From positions 1 to 20,733 of the IMG/VR virus record IMGVR_UViG_3300029319_000645: a DNA stretch of 20,733 bases; one strand, written 5' to 3'. Positions within the stretch are counted from its first letter, which is position 1, and the number at the start of each line of letters is the position of its first letter. Below the pieces are notes generated by a model. That model was not told the DNA's origin, searched no databases, and was given only the letters and a program-made list of their open reading frames with translations. This document shows, one piece after another, positions 8,870-20,725 of this stretch. The DNA is from a virus. The translations under genes were made by a program, and so were the position numbers.

Positions 8870-10036
8870 TTAAAGGATGTTAGCTAATTTCTTAAATCGG
8901 TTACGCATCTCACTGCCTTCAGTAATTACTTCCTCTGTTTTTTCAGATTTGGTGCTTGCTGTTGCTTTTGATGCAGAACCCTTCACTTTGACTGATTCAT
9001 TTACTACTTCGTTCTTAGAACCAAAAGATTCTGCTAATGTTGAGTAAACCAACTTAACTTCTCTAATATTCTTTGCACGATCAAATGTTTCAATCACTTT
9101 AACTTTTTGTGCCTCGCTTAAGCCATAAGCACGGAAGAGTTTGTTTGTGAATAAAAGTTTTGCGTTAAGCATATTAACTTCAGAAAGTTCACCTCTTAAT
9201 ACTTCTACAGTATCACGGTATTCTTTCAATTCAGCTTCTAATGCTTCAACTTTATTTTCTTCTTCTTCAACTTCATTCTCTTCTTCGAGTGATTTAAGGA
9301 TTTCTTCTAAGTCGATTTCTTCATCAACTTCCTCTTCCTCTTCACCTTCAGTCATTTTACCTTTACCAGCTTTGCCAATATCGGTTGAACTACCTGATTT
9401 TTTGTCGTGAGCGTTGTCGCCTTTGCCGATTCCTGAGGAAACATCATTTTCATCAACTGTTTCTTCCTCTTCGTCGCCCTCTGCAACAGGCTCTTCATCT
9501 GCAGGTTCGTCATCTTCTTCAAGTTCAGATTCGAGTTCCTTAATTACAGCTTCTAGATCTAACTCCTCATCCATTTCATCTTCGTCGTCTTTTTCATCTT
9601 CCATCTCTTCTTCATCTTCATCTTTCATTTTCATTTCATCGACTTCGACTTCATCAACTACAGGAGCATACTTTACACCATCAATCTCGATAATTTCAGA
9701 TTCATCAACTTCTTCTTCTTCATCTTCATCTTCATCTTTCATTCTCATCTCATCCATATCGTCATCTTCTTTAGAATCTTCATCAGATGGATCTTCATCG
9801 GCGTCTTTCATTCTCATCTCATCCATATCTTCATCTTCATCATCTTTTTTCATTTCTTCAACTTCGTCATCTTCAGTTACTTCTTCTTCACCCTCGATTT
9901 CTGATTGAAGTTTTTTAGAAAGCATAGACTGTATAGTAGGTGTGAAAGCTTCTTCTAATGCTAATTTAGCATTTTCTATTGCTGTTTCACGGACTGCTTT
10001 AGCGTCTGCGATGGCTTCTTTCAATAAGTCATCCAT
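8870..10036 (-). CDS. gp22: Prohead scaffold (core) protein, gp22-like
   Basis: A 388-residue, extremely acidic protein. The C-terminal block from about residue 286 to 337 (VNMLNAKLLFTNKLFRAYGL, then QKVKVIETFDRAKNIREVKL and VYSTLAES) is the recognisable gp22 signature of marine T4-like phages. The N-terminus is helical (MDDLLKEAIADAKAV). Residues 45-260 are almost entirely Glu/Asp with Lys/Met islands, including repeats [VM]-[DE]-E-M-[RK]-x-K/D-D at about 59, 71, 94 and 132. Longer than T4 gp22 (269 residues) mainly through this acidic middle. gp22 fills the prohead and is degraded by gp21; possible L/I-x-E cleavage sites include LAE at 334-336 and ITE near the C-terminus. GGAG at 10045-10048 lies 8 bases before the ATG. 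It lies directly before the capsid gene, as in T4. Confidence 0.92.
   Translation of the reverse strand: MDDLLKEAIADAKAVRETAIENAKLALEEAFTPTIQSMLSKKLQSEIEGEEEVTEDDEVEEMKKDDEDEDMDEMRMKDADEDPSDEDSKEDDDMDEMRMKDEDEDEEEEVDESEIIEIDGVKYAPVVDEVEVDEMKMKDEDEEEMEDEKDDEDEMDEELDLEAVIKELESELEEDDEPADEEPVAEGDEEEETVDENDVSSGIGKGDNAHDKKSGSSTDIGKAGKGKMTEGEEEEEVDEEIDLEEILKSLEEENEVEEEENKVEALEAELKEYRDTVEVLRGELSEVNMLNAKLLFTNKLFRAYGLSEAQKVKVIETFDRAKNIREVKLVYSTLAESFGSKNEVVNESVKVKGSASKATASTKSEKTEEVITEGSEMRNRFKKLANIL
9250..9905. repeat. Polypurine/polypyrimidine, low-complexity acidic repeat tract inside the scaffold gene
   Basis: The plus strand is dominated by TTC/ATC/TCT units (coding strand GAA/GAT/AGA). Near-identical blocks encoding MDEMRMKD occur at about 9733-9760 and 9803-9828, and a diverged copy (DEMKMKD) at about 9620-9640. 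It also creates a long Ser-rich open frame on the plus strand that I regard as spurious. Confidence 0.7.
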
Positions 10037-10959: not shown

Positions 10960-11304
10960 TTACTTTCTAAGTTTTCCTCGTTTAGAGTATCTTCTGAAAC
11001 CATCTCTTACTCGGTTCCATAAAGCCCTCATTAAATCTTTTTGTCCTGTACCAGTATCTCTAACTGGACCTGACATAATTGCTCTTTGTAAATCCATAGC
11101 ATCGTACTTACCAGCTTTTACACCATCCATCATCATTTTTACAGTTTGTGCTGATGCTTTACCAATCATCTTTCCCATCTTTATAACATCTTGTTCAACC
11201 ATTTTCTTTGCTTCTGGCGAACTAAATGGTAATTGTGATGGTGAACTAAAAGGTGCTTCATCAACCATATTTTCCATTAGTCTTTTATAAATAGATTTTT
11301 TCAT
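10960..11304 (-). CDS. Hypothetical basic protein, probable prohead component
   Basis: A 114-residue protein beginning MKKSIYKRLMENMVDEAPF. A Ser/Pro-rich stretch (18-30) is followed by Met-rich amphipathic helices (35-70) and a strongly basic C-terminus (WNRVRDGFRRYSKRGKLRK). MVDE followed by Ala near residue 16 resembles a prohead-protease site but lacks the preferred L/I. It overlaps the upstream gene's stop by one base (TAATG) and is 10 bases from the next start. No family recognised. The charge pattern suits an internal head protein near DNA or the acidic core; this is inference. Confidence 0.7.
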   Translation of the reverse strand: MKKSIYKRLMENMVDEAPFSSPSQLPFSSPEAKKMVEQDVIKMGKMIGKASAQTVKMMMDGVKAGKYDAMDLQRAIMSGPVRDTGTGQKDLMRALWNRVRDGFRRYSKRGKLRK

Positions 11305-11669
11305 TATCTTCTTAGTCCTAATGATTTTCTAAGTCTTAATGACTTCATTCTTTTTCTTAAAATTCTTTTACCTTTTGCTTTTCTTTTTATAGCAGCTCTT
11401 CTCTGCCCCCTTTTCTTTCTAACTCTTTCACCTGTACTTACCATCACACAAGCTTTTTTGGATGGACTATACTTCATACGAGGTGGACAAAAGGCTTTTA
11501 ACTTAACCCTACGATTTCGTATTACTCTACGTTTTCTTAGTTCAGTTAGAAAAGCTAATGCAATTTCATCAACTGTTTTTGAATTCTCCCACATTTCATC
11601 TTCAACTAAGTCAAAGAATCCATTCCTATCAGCGTATTCTATTAAACCATATATCTCGGTTAGTTTCAT
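11304..11669 (-). CDS. Hypothetical protein with very basic C-terminal half
   Basis: A 121-residue protein. Residues 1-42 are acidic and helical (MKLTEIYGLIEYADRNGF); residues 43-121 are dominated by Arg/Lys. In between are two cysteines (C61, C74) in the segment AFCPPRMKYSPSKKACVMV. The tail carries RRAAIKRKAKGKRILRKRMK then LRLRKSLGLRR. This CPP...KAC plus RLRKS pattern looks like a conserved small protein of marine T4-like head clusters, although I cannot name it. A DNA-binding or core-binding head protein is plausible. AAGG in the end of the previous gene may serve as Shine-Dalgarno; the gap to that gene's stop is 4 bases. Confidence 0.7.
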   Translation of the reverse strand: MKLTEIYGLIEYADRNGFFDLVEDEMWENSKTVDEIALAFLTELRKRRVIRNRRVKLKAFCPPRMKYSPSKKACVMVSTGERVRKKRGQRRAAIKRKAKGKRILRKRMKSLRLRKSLGLRR

Positions 11670-11673
11670 TAAA

Positions 11674-11973
11674 TTAACTTACCTTTGGATTTTTCTTTAA
11701 TACGTAAACCACTTTGTTGTTAGTAGCCATATGTTTTGGTGCAAATTCATATAATTGATTTTGTTGAAGTTTAGATATATCTATTCTTCCACCATCCCAT
11801 AAATCTATATGTCCTGTAGTACCTGATTCAGCAACAATAACACCACCCATTCCAAAGTCGGAACCTGTGAAACTAGCACTTGTATTACTAACTTGAATTA
11901 CTCTAGTCCATTTGCCAGGAACTCCAAATTTTTGAGCCTGGTTATAATCGGTTGGGTGATCGTTCATTCCCAT
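11674..11973 (-). CDS. Small hypothetical, possible head decoration or accessory protein
   Basis: A 99-residue protein beginning MGMNDHPTDYNQAQKFG. Beta-rich with many Gly (GSDFGMGGVIVAESG), WDGGRIDIS, and a final strand VVYVLKKNPKVS. AGGAG overlaps the upstream gene's stop (TAGGAG) 6 bases before the ATG. Its neutral, beta-rich character differs from the charged helical neighbours, so it may be a surface or decoration protein rather than a core component. No family recognised; the role is a guess from composition. Confidence 0.65.
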   Translation of the reverse strand: MGMNDHPTDYNQAQKFGVPGKWTRVIQVSNTSASFTGSDFGMGGVIVAESGTTGHIDLWDGGRIDISKLQQNQLYEFAPKHMATNNKVVYVLKKNPKVS

Positions 11974-16311: not shown

Positions 16312-17892
16312 CTATAAAAGCCATTCAAGGCTTTCCTTATTTTTACCGACTTCCCATTTCCAAGAATCGGCTTTATCTGTTTTGTTAGTATAGACTCCTT
16401 GACTATTATACTGATTCATACTATCAAGAGCTTTTCTCTGTAATTGAACACCTTCAGCACGTAATCTAAGAGCAGTTTCTCTTACCCATAGAGCTACAGC
16501 ATATGACATAACTAAGTCATCATTGTATCCTCTCATTGCCTCAGCGCGTTGCCCGTTATATATAAATACAAACAACTCATCAATTAAACGATTTGAACTA
16601 ACTTCTACTAACTTTTCTCTAAAAAATTCTTCTAATTTAGCAACAACTAATGGTCTTGTTTTCATTGACATTGTGAAACCAGGCACCATCTTCTTTTCTT
16701 CTCTATAATGTTTATTTGTCATTTGATGTTCTACATCAACATACTTTAAATCTTTACTCATATAGAATAGGTTAGGGTAACCTCTATCTATAATTTGTTG
16801 AATAGCTGCCCAACCAATATTGTTATTCTCCACAACGAGTAATGCATTGTTATACTCTGCAGATATATTAACTAACAAGTTACCAAAATCTCTTGTAGAC
16901 AAAACACCTTTGTATTCTGCTACTTGTTTTAAAGTTTCTAACTCAAGTATATGAAATGCTGAAAAGTCTGTAGAATCTCCCCTACTAACGTCAGCACTAA
17001 CTATGTAATCTTTAGTATAATTTGGTGGTTCCCATATCCATAAATTACTATCCACTCCACGTTTTTCCATAGGTTCATTAACAAACTTAGTTTTTTGTTC
17101 TTCAAGTAGAACACCATCAATTACAGTTTGTCCTGAACTTATAAAATCACAATCACATTCTTGAGCTGCAAGTGATGGACCAAGTAATTTATCTTGTTCA
17201 TCTCTCCACTCTTGCCCTCTATCTGGATGTACAGTCCAATGAAGTTTGATAAAATTAAAATCATTAATACCATCTTCAGCATCCATCCAAGTTTTGTGAA
17301 ACCAATTACCAATACCATTAGGTGTAGATAGTGCGATACATTGTCCACCAGTTGATAGTGTCTGAGAAGCCGCTGCCCATATCCCATCAATCTTTTCAAT
17401 GAATGCTGCCTCATCAAGTATCAGTAACGATAGTGCTTCAGAACGACCACTATCCTCACCACTTGATACAGCTTTAATTTGAGAACCATTTTTATATCTA
17501 AGATTTAATTTATTATCTTCAACACACTTTGCCTTTAACCAAGTAGGTAAATTTGCGTGCATCACACGAACTTTAGTAACCAAGTTTTTAGCAACATCTT
17601 GTTTAGTTGCTATAACCAATATATTCTTATCTTGATTAAAAGTCATCATCCATAGTGAGTAAGCAGCTGTAAGAGTTGATATACCTAATTGTCTAGCTTT
17701 TAAGATAACGTTAAATCTATGTAACAATAAATCAGACATAGTTTTTTCTTGAAACTCATACAAATCAAAAGGTATCTTACCTTTCATTGGATGTTGAATG
17801 ACACAATACTTCTTTACAAAGTAGCTTGGGTCACTAGCACATTTAAGATATTCTTTTTTAATAGCTTCTTTTAGTGGTGCTGGATTAGCCAA
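16312..17892 (-). CDS. gp17: Terminase large subunit, gp17-like
   Basis: A 526-residue packaging motor. The ATPase part has a variant Walker A (LKARQLGIST, 64-73), Walker B with catalytic Glu (LLILDE, 156-161) and motif III ALSTPNG (187-193). The nuclease part has D301 in VSADVSRGD, E355 in LVVENNN and D458/D459 in GYNDDLVMSYA, matching T4's LDCSEG, IELNS and GYHDDLVMSL. It is shorter than T4 gp17 (610 residues), mostly at the N-terminus. The usual Walker A Lys position is Ile (T4: RQLGKT); Lys65 or Arg67 may substitute. Start at 17892 overlaps the upstream gene by 8 bases. It cuts concatemeric DNA and pumps it through the portal encoded next. Confidence 0.97.
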   Translation of the reverse strand: MANPAPLKEAIKKEYLKCASDPSYFVKKYCVIQHPMKGKIPFDLYEFQEKTMSDLLLHRFNVILKARQLGISTLTAAYSLWMMTFNQDKNILVIATKQDVAKNLVTKVRVMHANLPTWLKAKCVEDNKLNLRYKNGSQIKAVSSGEDSGRSEALSLLILDEAAFIEKIDGIWAAASQTLSTGGQCIALSTPNGIGNWFHKTWMDAEDGINDFNFIKLHWTVHPDRGQEWRDEQDKLLGPSLAAQECDCDFISSGQTVIDGVLLEEQKTKFVNEPMEKRGVDSNLWIWEPPNYTKDYIVSADVSRGDSTDFSAFHILELETLKQVAEYKGVLSTRDFGNLLVNISAEYNNALLVVENNNIGWAAIQQIIDRGYPNLFYMSKDLKYVDVEHQMTNKHYREEKKMVPGFTMSMKTRPLVVAKLEEFFREKLVEVSSNRLIDELFVFIYNGQRAEAMRGYNDDLVMSYAVALWVRETALRLRAEGVQLQRKALDSMNQYNSQGVYTNKTDKADSWKWEVGKNKESLEWLL

Positions 17893-18280
17893 TTATCTTT
17901 CCTGTTTGGTTAATAAGTGTGATTACTGCATACGATAATACAGAACCATATCCAAAATATAACCATTTGTTTTCATACCAACTTGGTTTAACTAACTTAA
18001 CCTTTTTCTCTGTAAGAGCTAATTGTTCGTTAGTTAGTTTTATTTCTTCTTCAAGTGTAGTAATCATTATAGCTTTCAAACTATCTTGATATGTTAGAGA
18101 ATCTACTTTGTTTTCTAAATAGATAAAATCATTTTCAAGGTTAATCATTTCCTCATCAGTAAATGTAGTTTGTGCACCAAGACTTACCATAAGTAGTGCA
18201 ATAGCAGTTATCATACTAACAACAAATTTTATTGTAAACTCTGGATTATCAGAGAAAAATAAATCTAAAATTCTTTTCAT
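17885..18280 (-). CDS. Two-membrane-segment protein with central coiled coil
   Basis: A 131-residue protein. A hydrophobic segment at about 16-36 (TIKFVVSMITAIALLMVSLG) is followed by a helical acidic stretch with heptad-like spacing (42-97; ENDFIYLENKVDSL, LEEEIKLTNEQLALTEKK) and a second hydrophobic segment at about 106-124 (WLYFGYGSVLSYAVITLI). No lipobox Cys, so it does not fit the unimolecular spanin pattern. The ATG overlaps the stop of the upstream gene (ATGA type). Possible roles are a holin-like or spanin-like lysis protein or a membrane-associated factor; none is demonstrated, and no endolysin is seen nearby. Confidence 0.7.
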   Translation of the reverse strand: MKRILDLFFSDNPEFTIKFVVSMITAIALLMVSLGAQTTFTDEEMINLENDFIYLENKVDSLTYQDSLKAIMITTLEEEIKLTNEQLALTEKKVKLVKPSWYENKWLYFGYGSVLSYAVITLINQTGKIIG

Positions 18281-18528
18281 TTTTTAGCTCTCGCTTTCAA
18301 CGATGTTCTAGCAGCTTTTGCTGTCTTGACATTTGGTTTCTTTTTAGGTGTTTTTTTAACAGCTTTCTTTACTGTAGCTTTTTTCTTTTGTACTACCTTT
18401 TTAGCTTTCTTAACTTCTTTTACTTTCTTATCAATCTTCTTAACTTCTGCTTTTTTCTTAGCAGATGCCTTACCACTTAATCCTAAGATACCTAAGATAG
18501 CCATTATTATTTTTACTAAGCCTTTCAT
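18277..18528 (-). CDS. Lysine-rich protein with signal-peptide-like N-terminus
   Basis: An 83-residue protein. Residues 1-23 (MKGLVKIIMAILGILGLSGK, then ASA) look like a signal peptide or single membrane segment with an AxA cleavage site at 21-23. The rest (24-83) is about half Lys with Ala and Val, in KKAxVKK-type repeats typical of histone H1-like or AlgP-like tails, and has no acidic cluster apart from isolated Glu/Asp near the start. It overlaps the next gene by 4 bases and starts 1 base behind the previous stop. If exported, a polycation in the periplasm or membrane; if the hydrophobic part stays in, a membrane-tethered DNA- or lipid-binding tail. Function unknown. Confidence 0.7.
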   Translation of the reverse strand: MKGLVKIIMAILGILGLSGKASAKKKAEVKKIDKKVKEVKKAKKVVQKKKATVKKAVKKTPKKKPNVKTAKAARTSLKARAKK

Positions 18529-18529
18529 A

Positions 18530-18763
18530 CTATGCCTCTCCGTGTCTTGTTAAACCGATGTTTGTTAATATATCATCAAGGGATACTCCCTCTTTACCAG
18601 CAAATTTGTGAATTTCGTTTTCTACTTCAGTAAAAGCGTGTAAAGCACTATCTAAATCTTTATGATTATCTGCGTGATATACTCTACATATCTCTTTTAA
18701 ATTAGATACTAAATCTAATAATCTATCAAGTACTTTTGTACTAATCGTTACTGATTGTTTCAT
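18530..18763 (-). CDS. Small helical hypothetical protein
   Basis: A 77-residue, mildly acidic protein beginning MKQSVTISTKVLDRLLDLVS. It appears wholly helical and contains a His-rich loop (YHADNHKD). No cysteine pair, membrane segment or known motif. Its start lies inside the end of the upstream zinc-ribbon gene (23-base overlap in another frame) and its stop is 1 base from the next start, a spacing pattern that supports a real, co-translated gene. Function unknown. Confidence 0.65.
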   Translation of the reverse strand: MKQSVTISTKVLDRLLDLVSNLKEICRVYHADNHKDLDSALHAFTEVENEIHKFAGKEGVSLDDILTNIGLTRHGEA

Positions 18764-19306: not shown

Positions 19307-20725
19307 TTATCCAAACTTTAATAATCCGAGGATTTGATTGATTGGTGCGAATGCACCTGTAAATTTATATATCTTATTTTTATACTTAAAAACAATTCCC
19401 TCTGATGGAACGATAGCATCTGAACCACCAATAGCCTCAAACTTCTCTAACTGCCTTTTTAGAGTATCTAACTTAGATACATCTTTTGCAGATTTGAGTT
19501 GTTTAACTGCAGCATCAACTTCTTTCTTCATCTTAGCCACGGTTGCTTTTGGATTCGCTGCTAAGAAACCACTAACGTTTTTAAGTATCTCTGCACCCAA
19601 TTCAAAAAATAAAATTTCAAATGGTTTTATATTATCTTTTTGTAACTTTTTCAAATCTTTTTTGTCTGTAGATTTAGCCCAATCTAAAAACTTTTCATTC
19701 TTTATATTCTTTTTATCTAACCTAAAACTTTTGTCTAAGAATGCCCATCTTTTTGTTAATTTAAGTAAAACAGTTCTTGGAATTCTATACTTGTATTGTT
19801 TAGATGCATTATATATGAATTCCATCCAATAAGTTTCGTGATACTTACCTAAAGTATCATTATCCTTTAGTCTATAAATATTCTGTAATTTCTGTAACTT
19901 CGATAAAAAATATTTTTGTCTTTTAGCAAAATCTTGTGTTTTAGCTACTTTTAAAAAATTAGGTTTAGAAATAGTAAATTTTTTCTGTACGTGTTGATTT
20001 ACTTGTCTAATCATACCCTCTAGTATACGAGCTAAAGATGCATCAATTTTTTTAGCTACACCAGCTTCAGTATACTCTGTAGCGTTATGAAAAACTAAGT
20101 AAGCTCCATCATAATTGACTACATTAGCAGATGCTGGATACATAACCTCTAAGTTCATCCACCTCTTACCATTACCAAAAACTTTTTCTTTTTGTTTATC
20201 TGATAACTTAGTTATAGCTTTACTTAAATCTTTCATAGCAAAAACAAATGTATCCTTAATAACTCCTCTACCAGCAAACAAACTTTTTACAGCATTGATG
20301 TTTAAAGCGTTTTCTCCAAAACCTTTTAGCTGTCCTTTGTTTCTAGCTGCTACTAACTGATTACCTTTCCAACTAATTAGTAAGTTTTGTCCATCAAGTT
20401 TTTCTGTAACGTTATCCTCACGATTAAGTTTACCACTTAGTCCTAATTTTATTATTTTCTTTAAATCTCCAAAAGTTAAATCAGCATCATCAAATGGATG
20501 ATTCATATGTCCAGCAGCACCACCCTCAAGTAATTGAACACGATCAGAACCTTTTGGAGTGCTTGTTTTACTTACCTCTTTTAAAGATTCTAACCACCAC
20601 TCTTTAGAAAAGTTATCAAATTTTACTCCCTCTTCTTTAGATTTTGATTGAGCATTAATAGCACTACCGTGTGTTGCTCCTGGCACTACTAAAACTTTCT
20701 TACCTTGTTTTTTCAACTCTTCCAT
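19307..20725 (-). CDS. Ligase-like covalent nucleotidyltransferase, 5' end possibly outside window
   Basis: At least 472 residues. The first ATG is at 20725 but the frame stays open to the window edge, so the true start may lie beyond. Motifs of the DNA/RNA ligase and capping-enzyme superfamily appear in order: motif I EKLDGQN with nucleophile K109, a downstream R128 (AARNKG), motif III-like WMNLEVMYPA (E193) with AYLVF, motif IV EGIVFK (E442-K447) and motif V-like IYKFTG (K454). About 220 residues of helical insert separate motifs III and IV, longer than usual in RNA ligases. This predicts a protein-AMP intermediate and nucleic-acid end joining or a related reaction. An uncharacterised phage domain of this kind (I believe DUF6267) may be the closest family. 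Leads a packed operon ending in terminase and portal. Confidence 0.7.
   Translation of the reverse strand: MEELKKQGKKVLVVPGATHGSAINAQSKSKEEGVKFDNFSKEWWLESLKEVSKTSTPKGSDRVQLLEGGAAGHMNHPFDDADLTFGDLKKIIKLGLSGKLNREDNVTEKLDGQNLLISWKGNQLVAARNKGQLKGFGENALNINAVKSLFAGRGVIKDTFVFAMKDLSKAITKLSDKQKEKVFGNGKRWMNLEVMYPASANVVNYDGAYLVFHNATEYTEAGVAKKIDASLARILEGMIRQVNQHVQKKFTISKPNFLKVAKTQDFAKRQKYFLSKLQKLQNIYRLKDNDTLGKYHETYWMEFIYNASKQYKYRIPRTVLLKLTKRWAFLDKSFRLDKKNIKNEKFLDWAKSTDKKDLKKLQKDNIKPFEILFFELGAEILKNVSGFLAANPKATVAKMKKEVDAAVKQLKSAKDVSKLDTLKRQLEKFEAIGGSDAIVPSEGIVFKYKNKIYKFTGAFAPINQILGLLKFG

Follow-up and report, generated by a model that had tools for sequence, protein, structure and literature searches.

The window, as the whole 20.7-kb stretch of DNA analysed here (20,733 nucleotides) is called, contains a lysine-rich gene, GENE1, that overlaps a partner gene, GENE2, and the most plausible reading of the pair is as a hitherto undescribed candidate system, without a lipoprotein, for opening the host envelope when infection ends. 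The window is a piece of a T4-like phage, in which genes for the terminase, the Gp20 portal and the Gp23 capsid protein were identified; among annotated genomes, Flavobacterium phages and the phage Mel-JY01 are closest to it at the DNA level. The carriers of GENE1 and GENE2 are T4-like marine phages, with Bacteroidota as their probable hosts. Host assignment by contig matching pointed only to an alphaproteobacterial MAG, through one 4.4-kb contig that is probably misbinned phage DNA and was set aside.

GENE1 and its family

GENE1 (18277..18528, minus strand, as are all features of the window described below) encodes an 83-aa Lys-rich protein, MKGLVKIIMAILGILGLSGKASAKKKAEVKKIDKKVKEVKKAKKVVQKKKATVKKAVKKTPKKKPNVKTAKAARTSLKARAKK. 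Lys accounts for 30 of the 83 residues and for 27 of the 60 (45%) in residues 24-83, which carry a net charge of +26, so the first-pass annotation placed this ORF correctly and rightly described its tail as about half lysine; other window proteins tested contain 4-16% Lys. Base composition does not explain this richness, since the GC content of GENE1 (31%) is close to that of the window (33%), and since dN/dS between close homologues is 0.04-0.42 (19 comparisons), corresponding to purifying selection. With these values and about 30 distinct homologues, GENE1 is a real gene. A Pfam profile search with GENE1 gave no match, and in NCBIfam the best match of the window copy (E=0.36) was far below the cut-off, with no known basic protein family recovered; searches against solved structures returned mostly coiled-coil and designed proteins, and nothing informative.

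GENE1 alone as a query retrieved only near-identical copies. The family became visible through GENE2, which as a query matched many marine viral contigs in which a GENE1 homologue was found upstream. Net charge among the approximately 30 distinct GENE1 proteins extends from +33 (contigs L011, L019 and L020) down to +11 (L079). What the alignments conserve is a hydrophobic N-terminus, a helix with heptad patterning and, at the C-terminus, a motif similar to D-A-x-x-F-L-x-x-F, which is degenerate in the window clade, reading A-A-R-T-S-L-K-A-R. Judged from these alignments, the polylysine look is one extreme of a family of predicted membrane-targeted helical proteins, because homologues down to net +11 keep the segment, the helix and the C-terminal motif. 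The histone-H1-like tail, earlier taken as the essence of the protein, is not a family trait, homologues of net +11 being ordinary helices.

The Lys-faced helix with heptad-like periodicity covers residues 24-58 (18355..18459), as delimited by an AlphaFold2 model and by periodicity. Its period of 103-105 degrees, a value typical of coiled coils, was equalled in 36 of 1000 shuffles for the window copy and in 0-2 of 1000 for three homologues. The AlphaFold2 model (mean pLDDT 76) consists of a long helix over residues 2-58 and a second helix over residues 70-82 (18283..18321); by alignment and model, the latter is the counterpart of the C-terminal motif of the homologues. The predicted structures of both GENE1 and GENE2 are single or broken helices.

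GENE2 and membrane topology

GENE2 (17885..18280) is joined to GENE1 by a 4-bp ATGA stop/start overlap (18277..18280) and encodes a 131-aa protein with a signal-peptide-like N-terminus, an acidic helix, a P-S-W-Y-E-N-K-W-L-Y-F motif and a weakly hydrophobic C-terminus. The hydrophobic export segment (residues 14-36, 18173..18241) ends before an invariant Gln37, and all GENE2 homologues have Gln directly after the hydrophobic N-terminus, as A-Q, S-Q or G-Q. Gln following the signal peptidase I site, the Q-rule, has been reported to be specific to Bacteroidetes and to occur there in most substrates (PMC5837995). A lipobox Cys was sought in the GENE2 homologues and none was found, the invariant Gln occupying that site; the first hydrophobic segment of GENE2 is best read, from its sequence, as a signal peptide. 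The motif (residues 99-109, 17954..17986) is nearly invariant in the alignment and runs into a C-terminal segment (residues 106-125, 17906..17965; alignment and hydrophobicity) that is only marginally membrane-like, with a best 16-residue Kyte-Doolittle mean of 1.41 in the window copy. The previous description of GENE2 as a coupled gene with two membrane segments is thus upheld for the coupling, through the ATGA overlap, but the second segment is marginal and the first resembles a signal peptide.

The membrane-targeting segment of GENE1 spans residues 4-19 (18472..18519), within which residues 7-19 (IIMAILGILGLSG) are hydrophobic and G16 and S18 are invariant in the alignment. The first-pass annotation had named homologues lacking a hydrophobic N-terminus as the observation that would count against its reading; all 28 aligned homologues possess one. 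The hydrophobic core is short in the window copy (13 aa), and is unbroken over 17 aa in L021, L066 and L067, where it therefore suits a membrane anchor. Of the proposed export signal ending in ASA, the membrane-targeting N-terminus is retained in every homologue; cleavage at ASA (residues 21-23) finds no such conservation, G16 and S18 being the only invariant small residues there and lysines following the site. Gln after the segment is confined to the L031/L045 clade, where it follows G-L-S, and is absent from the window and the other clades. On these alignments a cleaved, freely exported GENE1 polycation is unlikely, because ASA is not conserved and because Gln, though invariant in GENE2, is missing outside one clade.

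The side of the membrane on which the GENE1 tail lies is indicated differently by two lines of evidence. In most homologues the C-terminal flank of the segment carries +4 to +8 and the N-terminal flank +2 to +4, and by the positive-inside rule lysines directly after a hydrophobic segment favour a cytoplasmic tail, as does the established hindrance of export by early positive charges. The charge of the GENE1 tail is inversely related to that of the GENE2 helix, with a Spearman coefficient of -0.84 over 18 pairs and -0.77 over 8 clade means (p=0.026), although from few independent clades. This opposite trend suggests that the two helices meet and hence that the GENE1 tail is periplasmic. The flank charges of GENE1 would accordingly favour a cytoplasmic tail, while the match in charge with an exported GENE2 would favour a periplasmic one.

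Genomic settings and links to lysis genes

GENE1 stands directly upstream of GENE2 in 40 of the 41 distinct GENE2 copies that have enough upstream DNA, with one 84-98-aa gene sometimes between them; the sole unpaired copy is that of Mel-JY01, in which GENE1 is replaced by a protein with the same layout. The next gene downstream in the window encodes the large terminase subunit (16312..17892; Terminase_6N, E=7.8e-14), and the terminase gene follows GENE2 in 35 of the 41 copies. Upstream of GENE1 lies a 77-aa gene (18530..18763), whose place is taken by another gene in relatives. Both genes are present at 96 terminase loci, neither at 38, and GENE2 only at one (Mel-JY01), counts that include overlapping loci of the same contigs and therefore reflect consistency, not independent events. 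The pair also occurs beside gp32, RecA-like and helicase genes (L172, L175, L178) and beside Hsp20 and TonB-receptor genes (L021, with L024 and L025 similar), Hsp20 being shown, among the TonB-receptor-like contigs with the pair, in L021 only. Since they are found before the terminase gene and in at least two other settings, GENE1 and GENE2 are a two-gene cassette and not a packaging component. A packaging partner of the terminase was rejected as the main idea, the pair without terminase and terminase without the pair both being observed.

A small virion-like gene of 84-104 aa shifts its position between contigs and sometimes lies between GENE1 and GENE2 (window 11674-11973, minus strand; L058:5670-5966; L047:1069-1323; L137:5661-5975). 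Near the pair in two contigs is a third small exported basic protein (L021:4518-4859, L221:4041-4418), with a signal ending in A-Q, a K/R-rich middle and a C-terminal GGVxYYVGY or GGVxWYVGY. Pair-bearing contigs away from the terminase gene encode proteins resembling TonB-dependent receptors, with CarboxypepD_reg and Plug domains, an unusual phage cargo (L021:9379-12171; L172:8454-9233, partial); genes of a size similar to that of L021 are present at L024:5533-8346 and L025:8525-11344.

Seven terminase-linked contigs carry a GH108 endolysin gene approximately 7-9 kb upstream on the same strand; in a 216-kb contig the distance is about 129 kb. This linkage is weak evidence, because the sister contig G013, which lacks the pair, has the same endolysin near its terminase gene. 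The GH108 endolysins of this group (L214:251-829 and relatives) are encoded just upstream of a very large gene related to window 19307-20725, and several of them are extended at the N-terminus by a short basic or hydrophobic stretch. No coding-strand protein other than GENE1 and GENE2 exceeds the hydrophobicity threshold in the window, L187, L214 or L178; in L203 GENE2 alone passes, and in L232 there is one extra ORF, probably an artefact.

The cultured Flavobacterium phage immuto, a relative by terminase, offers a similar arrangement beside lysis genes. Its gene 80 encodes a GH19 endolysin (phrog_181, E=3e-63) and gene 81 a holin, followed by two genes and then by the unannotated genes 84 and 85, whose order and encoded layouts match those of GENE1 and GENE2. 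In the gene 84 protein a membrane segment at the N-terminus is followed by a helix and, C-terminally, by an ELEQFF motif; unlike that of GENE1, its tail is not Lys-rich. When the ATG at 46087 is taken as its start, gene 85 encodes the signal MKKLILLIPILLLSLSSFSQ with Gln, a helix and a hydrophobic C-terminal segment. Translation from this in-frame ATG gains a signal peptide and an overlap with gene 84, and the annotated TTG start of gene 85 at 46129 (immuto26A_85, L236:46087-46488) is probably an error. Sequence comparison detected no homology between these genes and GENE1/GENE2. Such a pair beside the endolysin was seen in immuto alone of five phages, and in none of the four other Bacteroidota phages, Olleya phage Harreka_1 and Cellulophaga phages phi14:2, phi19:1 and Nekkels_1.

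Mel-JY01 provides a further comparison. Its protein WWT39303 is a GENE2 homologue (E=5e-11) and is encoded, together with WWT39302, directly before the terminase gene. WWT39302 occupies the position of GENE1 and likewise combines a membrane segment with a helix and a C-terminal motif similar to that of GENE1, but its tail carries a net charge of only +5, and an hhalign comparison (E=0.006, probability 6%) is only suggestive of homology. Three genes upstream of WWT39302 stands a homologue (E=2e-9) of immuto gene 79, a small two-segment protein encoded beside the immuto endolysin. A six-frame scan of the complete Mel-JY01 genome by a simple rule revealed no lipobox ORF; since no ORF with a lipoprotein signal was present, the phage is spanin-less by the lipoprotein criterion. 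A scan of viral contigs with the Mel-JY01 GENE2 found no relatives. Mel-JY01 (PP395634.1) was deposited as a Microcystis phage, although it is related to the window by DNA as the Flavobacterium phages are and its GENE2 counterpart obeys the Bacteroidetes Q-rule, so that its host may deserve a check.

Candidate functions of the pair

The leading explanation, held tentatively, is that GENE1 and GENE2 form a lipoprotein-free, spanin-like pair for envelope disruption. The hydrophobic N-terminal helix of GENE1 would anchor it at the inner membrane, from which its Lys-faced helix, ending in the short conserved one, would extend, while GENE2 would be exported by its signal peptide, display its acidic helix in the periplasm and place its C-terminal WYENKW segment at a membrane. 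The two helices would most likely pair through their opposite charges, and the proteins would most likely act late, together with the separate endolysin of the phage, to breach the host envelope, thereby doing a spanin-like or outer-membrane-disrupting job without a lipoprotein. This agrees with the envelope destabilisation at lysis suggested by the first-pass annotation, for which a lysis role is still the best guess, but not in the form of a free exported polycation. Speaking for the envelope-disruption reading are the near-constant pairing of the two genes, their occurrence as a unit in several settings, their standing almost alone above the hydrophobicity threshold, the GH108 endolysin gene on the same strand, the immuto layout beside lysis genes together with the gene 79 homologue of Mel-JY01, the missing lipobox ORF in Mel-JY01 by the simple rule, and the opposed charges of tail and helix. 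Against it stand the lysines that follow the GENE1 segment, the endolysin-bearing sisters without the pair, the lack of homology to the immuto genes, the four Bacteroidota phages with no such pair at their endolysin, the spanin matches equalled by permuted controls and the weak C-terminus of GENE2.

The likeness to known two-component spanins (lambda Rz/Rz1, P2 LysB/LysC, T4 PseT.3/PseT.2) lies in two small adjacent or overlapping genes, the first encoding a membrane segment and a helix and the second an exported protein. The second spanin protein, however, is an outer-membrane lipoprotein, whereas GENE2 has a signal of the signal peptidase I type with Gln, a membrane-like C-terminal segment and no lipobox. 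Several GENE1 members gave weak matches to the Rz-like spanins of PHROG and to LysB, but ten heptad-permuted copies matched as well or better; such matches are uninformative, because they reflect only a membrane segment plus a coiled coil, and by this permutation control GENE1 has no specific sequence similarity to Rz. Lysis genes of T4-like phages are not clustered, and a spanin survey noted that other membrane topologies, which it did not consider, might serve (PMC6139136). Unimolecular spanins such as T1 gp11, the type reported for Bacteroidetes phages (PMC12596118), share with GENE2 an export signal at the N-terminus, a middle part that is helical and a membrane-like C-terminal segment; GENE2 differs in its lack of a lipobox, its obligate partner gene and the weak hydrophobicity of its C-terminal segment. 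Judged by lipobox and homology, then, the pair is not a spanin, but it may work like one.

Disruptins, exemplified by that of phiKT, are summarised in PMC12819732 after Holt et al. (2022) as small cationic helical phage proteins. GENE1 is likewise small, cationic and helical (by model, charge and periodicity), its homologues being moderately cationic only, and as a disruptin would be a candidate for disrupting the outer membrane in phages without spanins; it departs from disruptins in its conserved N-terminal hydrophobic segment, its dedicated partner and the present evidence that it is not a free peptide. A more elaborate proposal, offered with considerable reserve, is a lipoprotein-free two-component system of marine phages in which charge would couple a membrane-anchored polycation to an acidic helix that is exported and anchored at its C-terminus, the two together doing the job of a spanin, with the Lys-rich members perhaps binding the outer membrane directly as a spanin/disruptin hybrid. 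Should the pair work at lysis, it would offer a concrete, testable answer for one such phage group, and GENE1 followed by P-S-W-Y-E-N-K-W would be a sequence signature for recognising further cases; otherwise the pair is nonetheless a gene family that lacks annotation, shows strict pairing and is widespread among contigs of marine viruses.

Among the alternatives, a distinctly less probable but still credible one is that GENE1 is an inner-membrane anchor whose cytoplasmic polylysine tail keeps DNA, terminase or the prohead at the membrane while heads are assembled and packaged, as T4 head assembly also starts membrane-bound. The more positive C-terminal flank in most homologues and the terminase gene following in 35 of the 41 copies fit a tether, but the pair is also found away from the terminase gene, 38 terminase loci lack it, homologues of net +11 are unlike DNA binders and the GENE2 helix is predicted to be exported. 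Slightly lower still is the chance of a role as holin or in lysis timing, in which GENE1, by itself or together with GENE2, would use its short membrane segment and a charged, cytoplasmic tail to open the inner membrane to the GH108 endolysin. The small size of GENE1, its single membrane segment, its charged tail, the scarcity of other membrane genes nearby and a weak match to the holin family phrog_13404 (E=0.017) speak for this; the match, as in the spanin controls, is within the chance range of coiled-coil or low-complexity sequence, the 13-aa core is short in the window, and relatives with the same endolysin lack GENE1. Of comparable standing is the view that the pair alters the host envelope to some other end, for instance to exclude superinfecting phages, since a small exported or membrane cassette of two genes that is patchy among close relatives and moves between contexts behaves as accessory genes do; the pair nevertheless persists in most members of several clades, and its layout recurs beside the lysis genes of immuto.

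The remaining readings, a free cationic toxin and a DNA binder, are the least likely of those in the first-pass annotation, the heptad helix rather than charge being conserved in homologues reaching down to net +11. Release of the GENE1 tail from a signal peptide as a cationic, envelope-disrupting disruptin or toxin is improbable: its high Lys content, the possible placement of G16-x-S18 at -3/-1 of a signal peptidase site and the Gln of the L031/L045 clade would suit it, but other clades and the window lack that Gln, and early positive charges in a mature region hinder export. Very improbable is a histone-like DNA-binding protein inside the virion, for which the Lys-rich tail and the neighbourhood of head genes might speak; a hydrophobic N-terminus in 28 of 28 homologues, the absence of a Pfam match, the near-total pairing with exported GENE2 and the low-charge homologues all disfavour such a virion role.

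Two further proteins are encoded elsewhere in the window, both on the minus strand. A very acidic 388-aa protein with repeated MDEMRMKD-x-DED, encoded just before the capsid gene (8870-10036), is probably a prohead core or scaffold protein. A 121-aa protein of the head cluster (11304-11669), with an Arg/Lys-rich C-terminal half, is a better nucleic-acid-binding candidate than GENE1.
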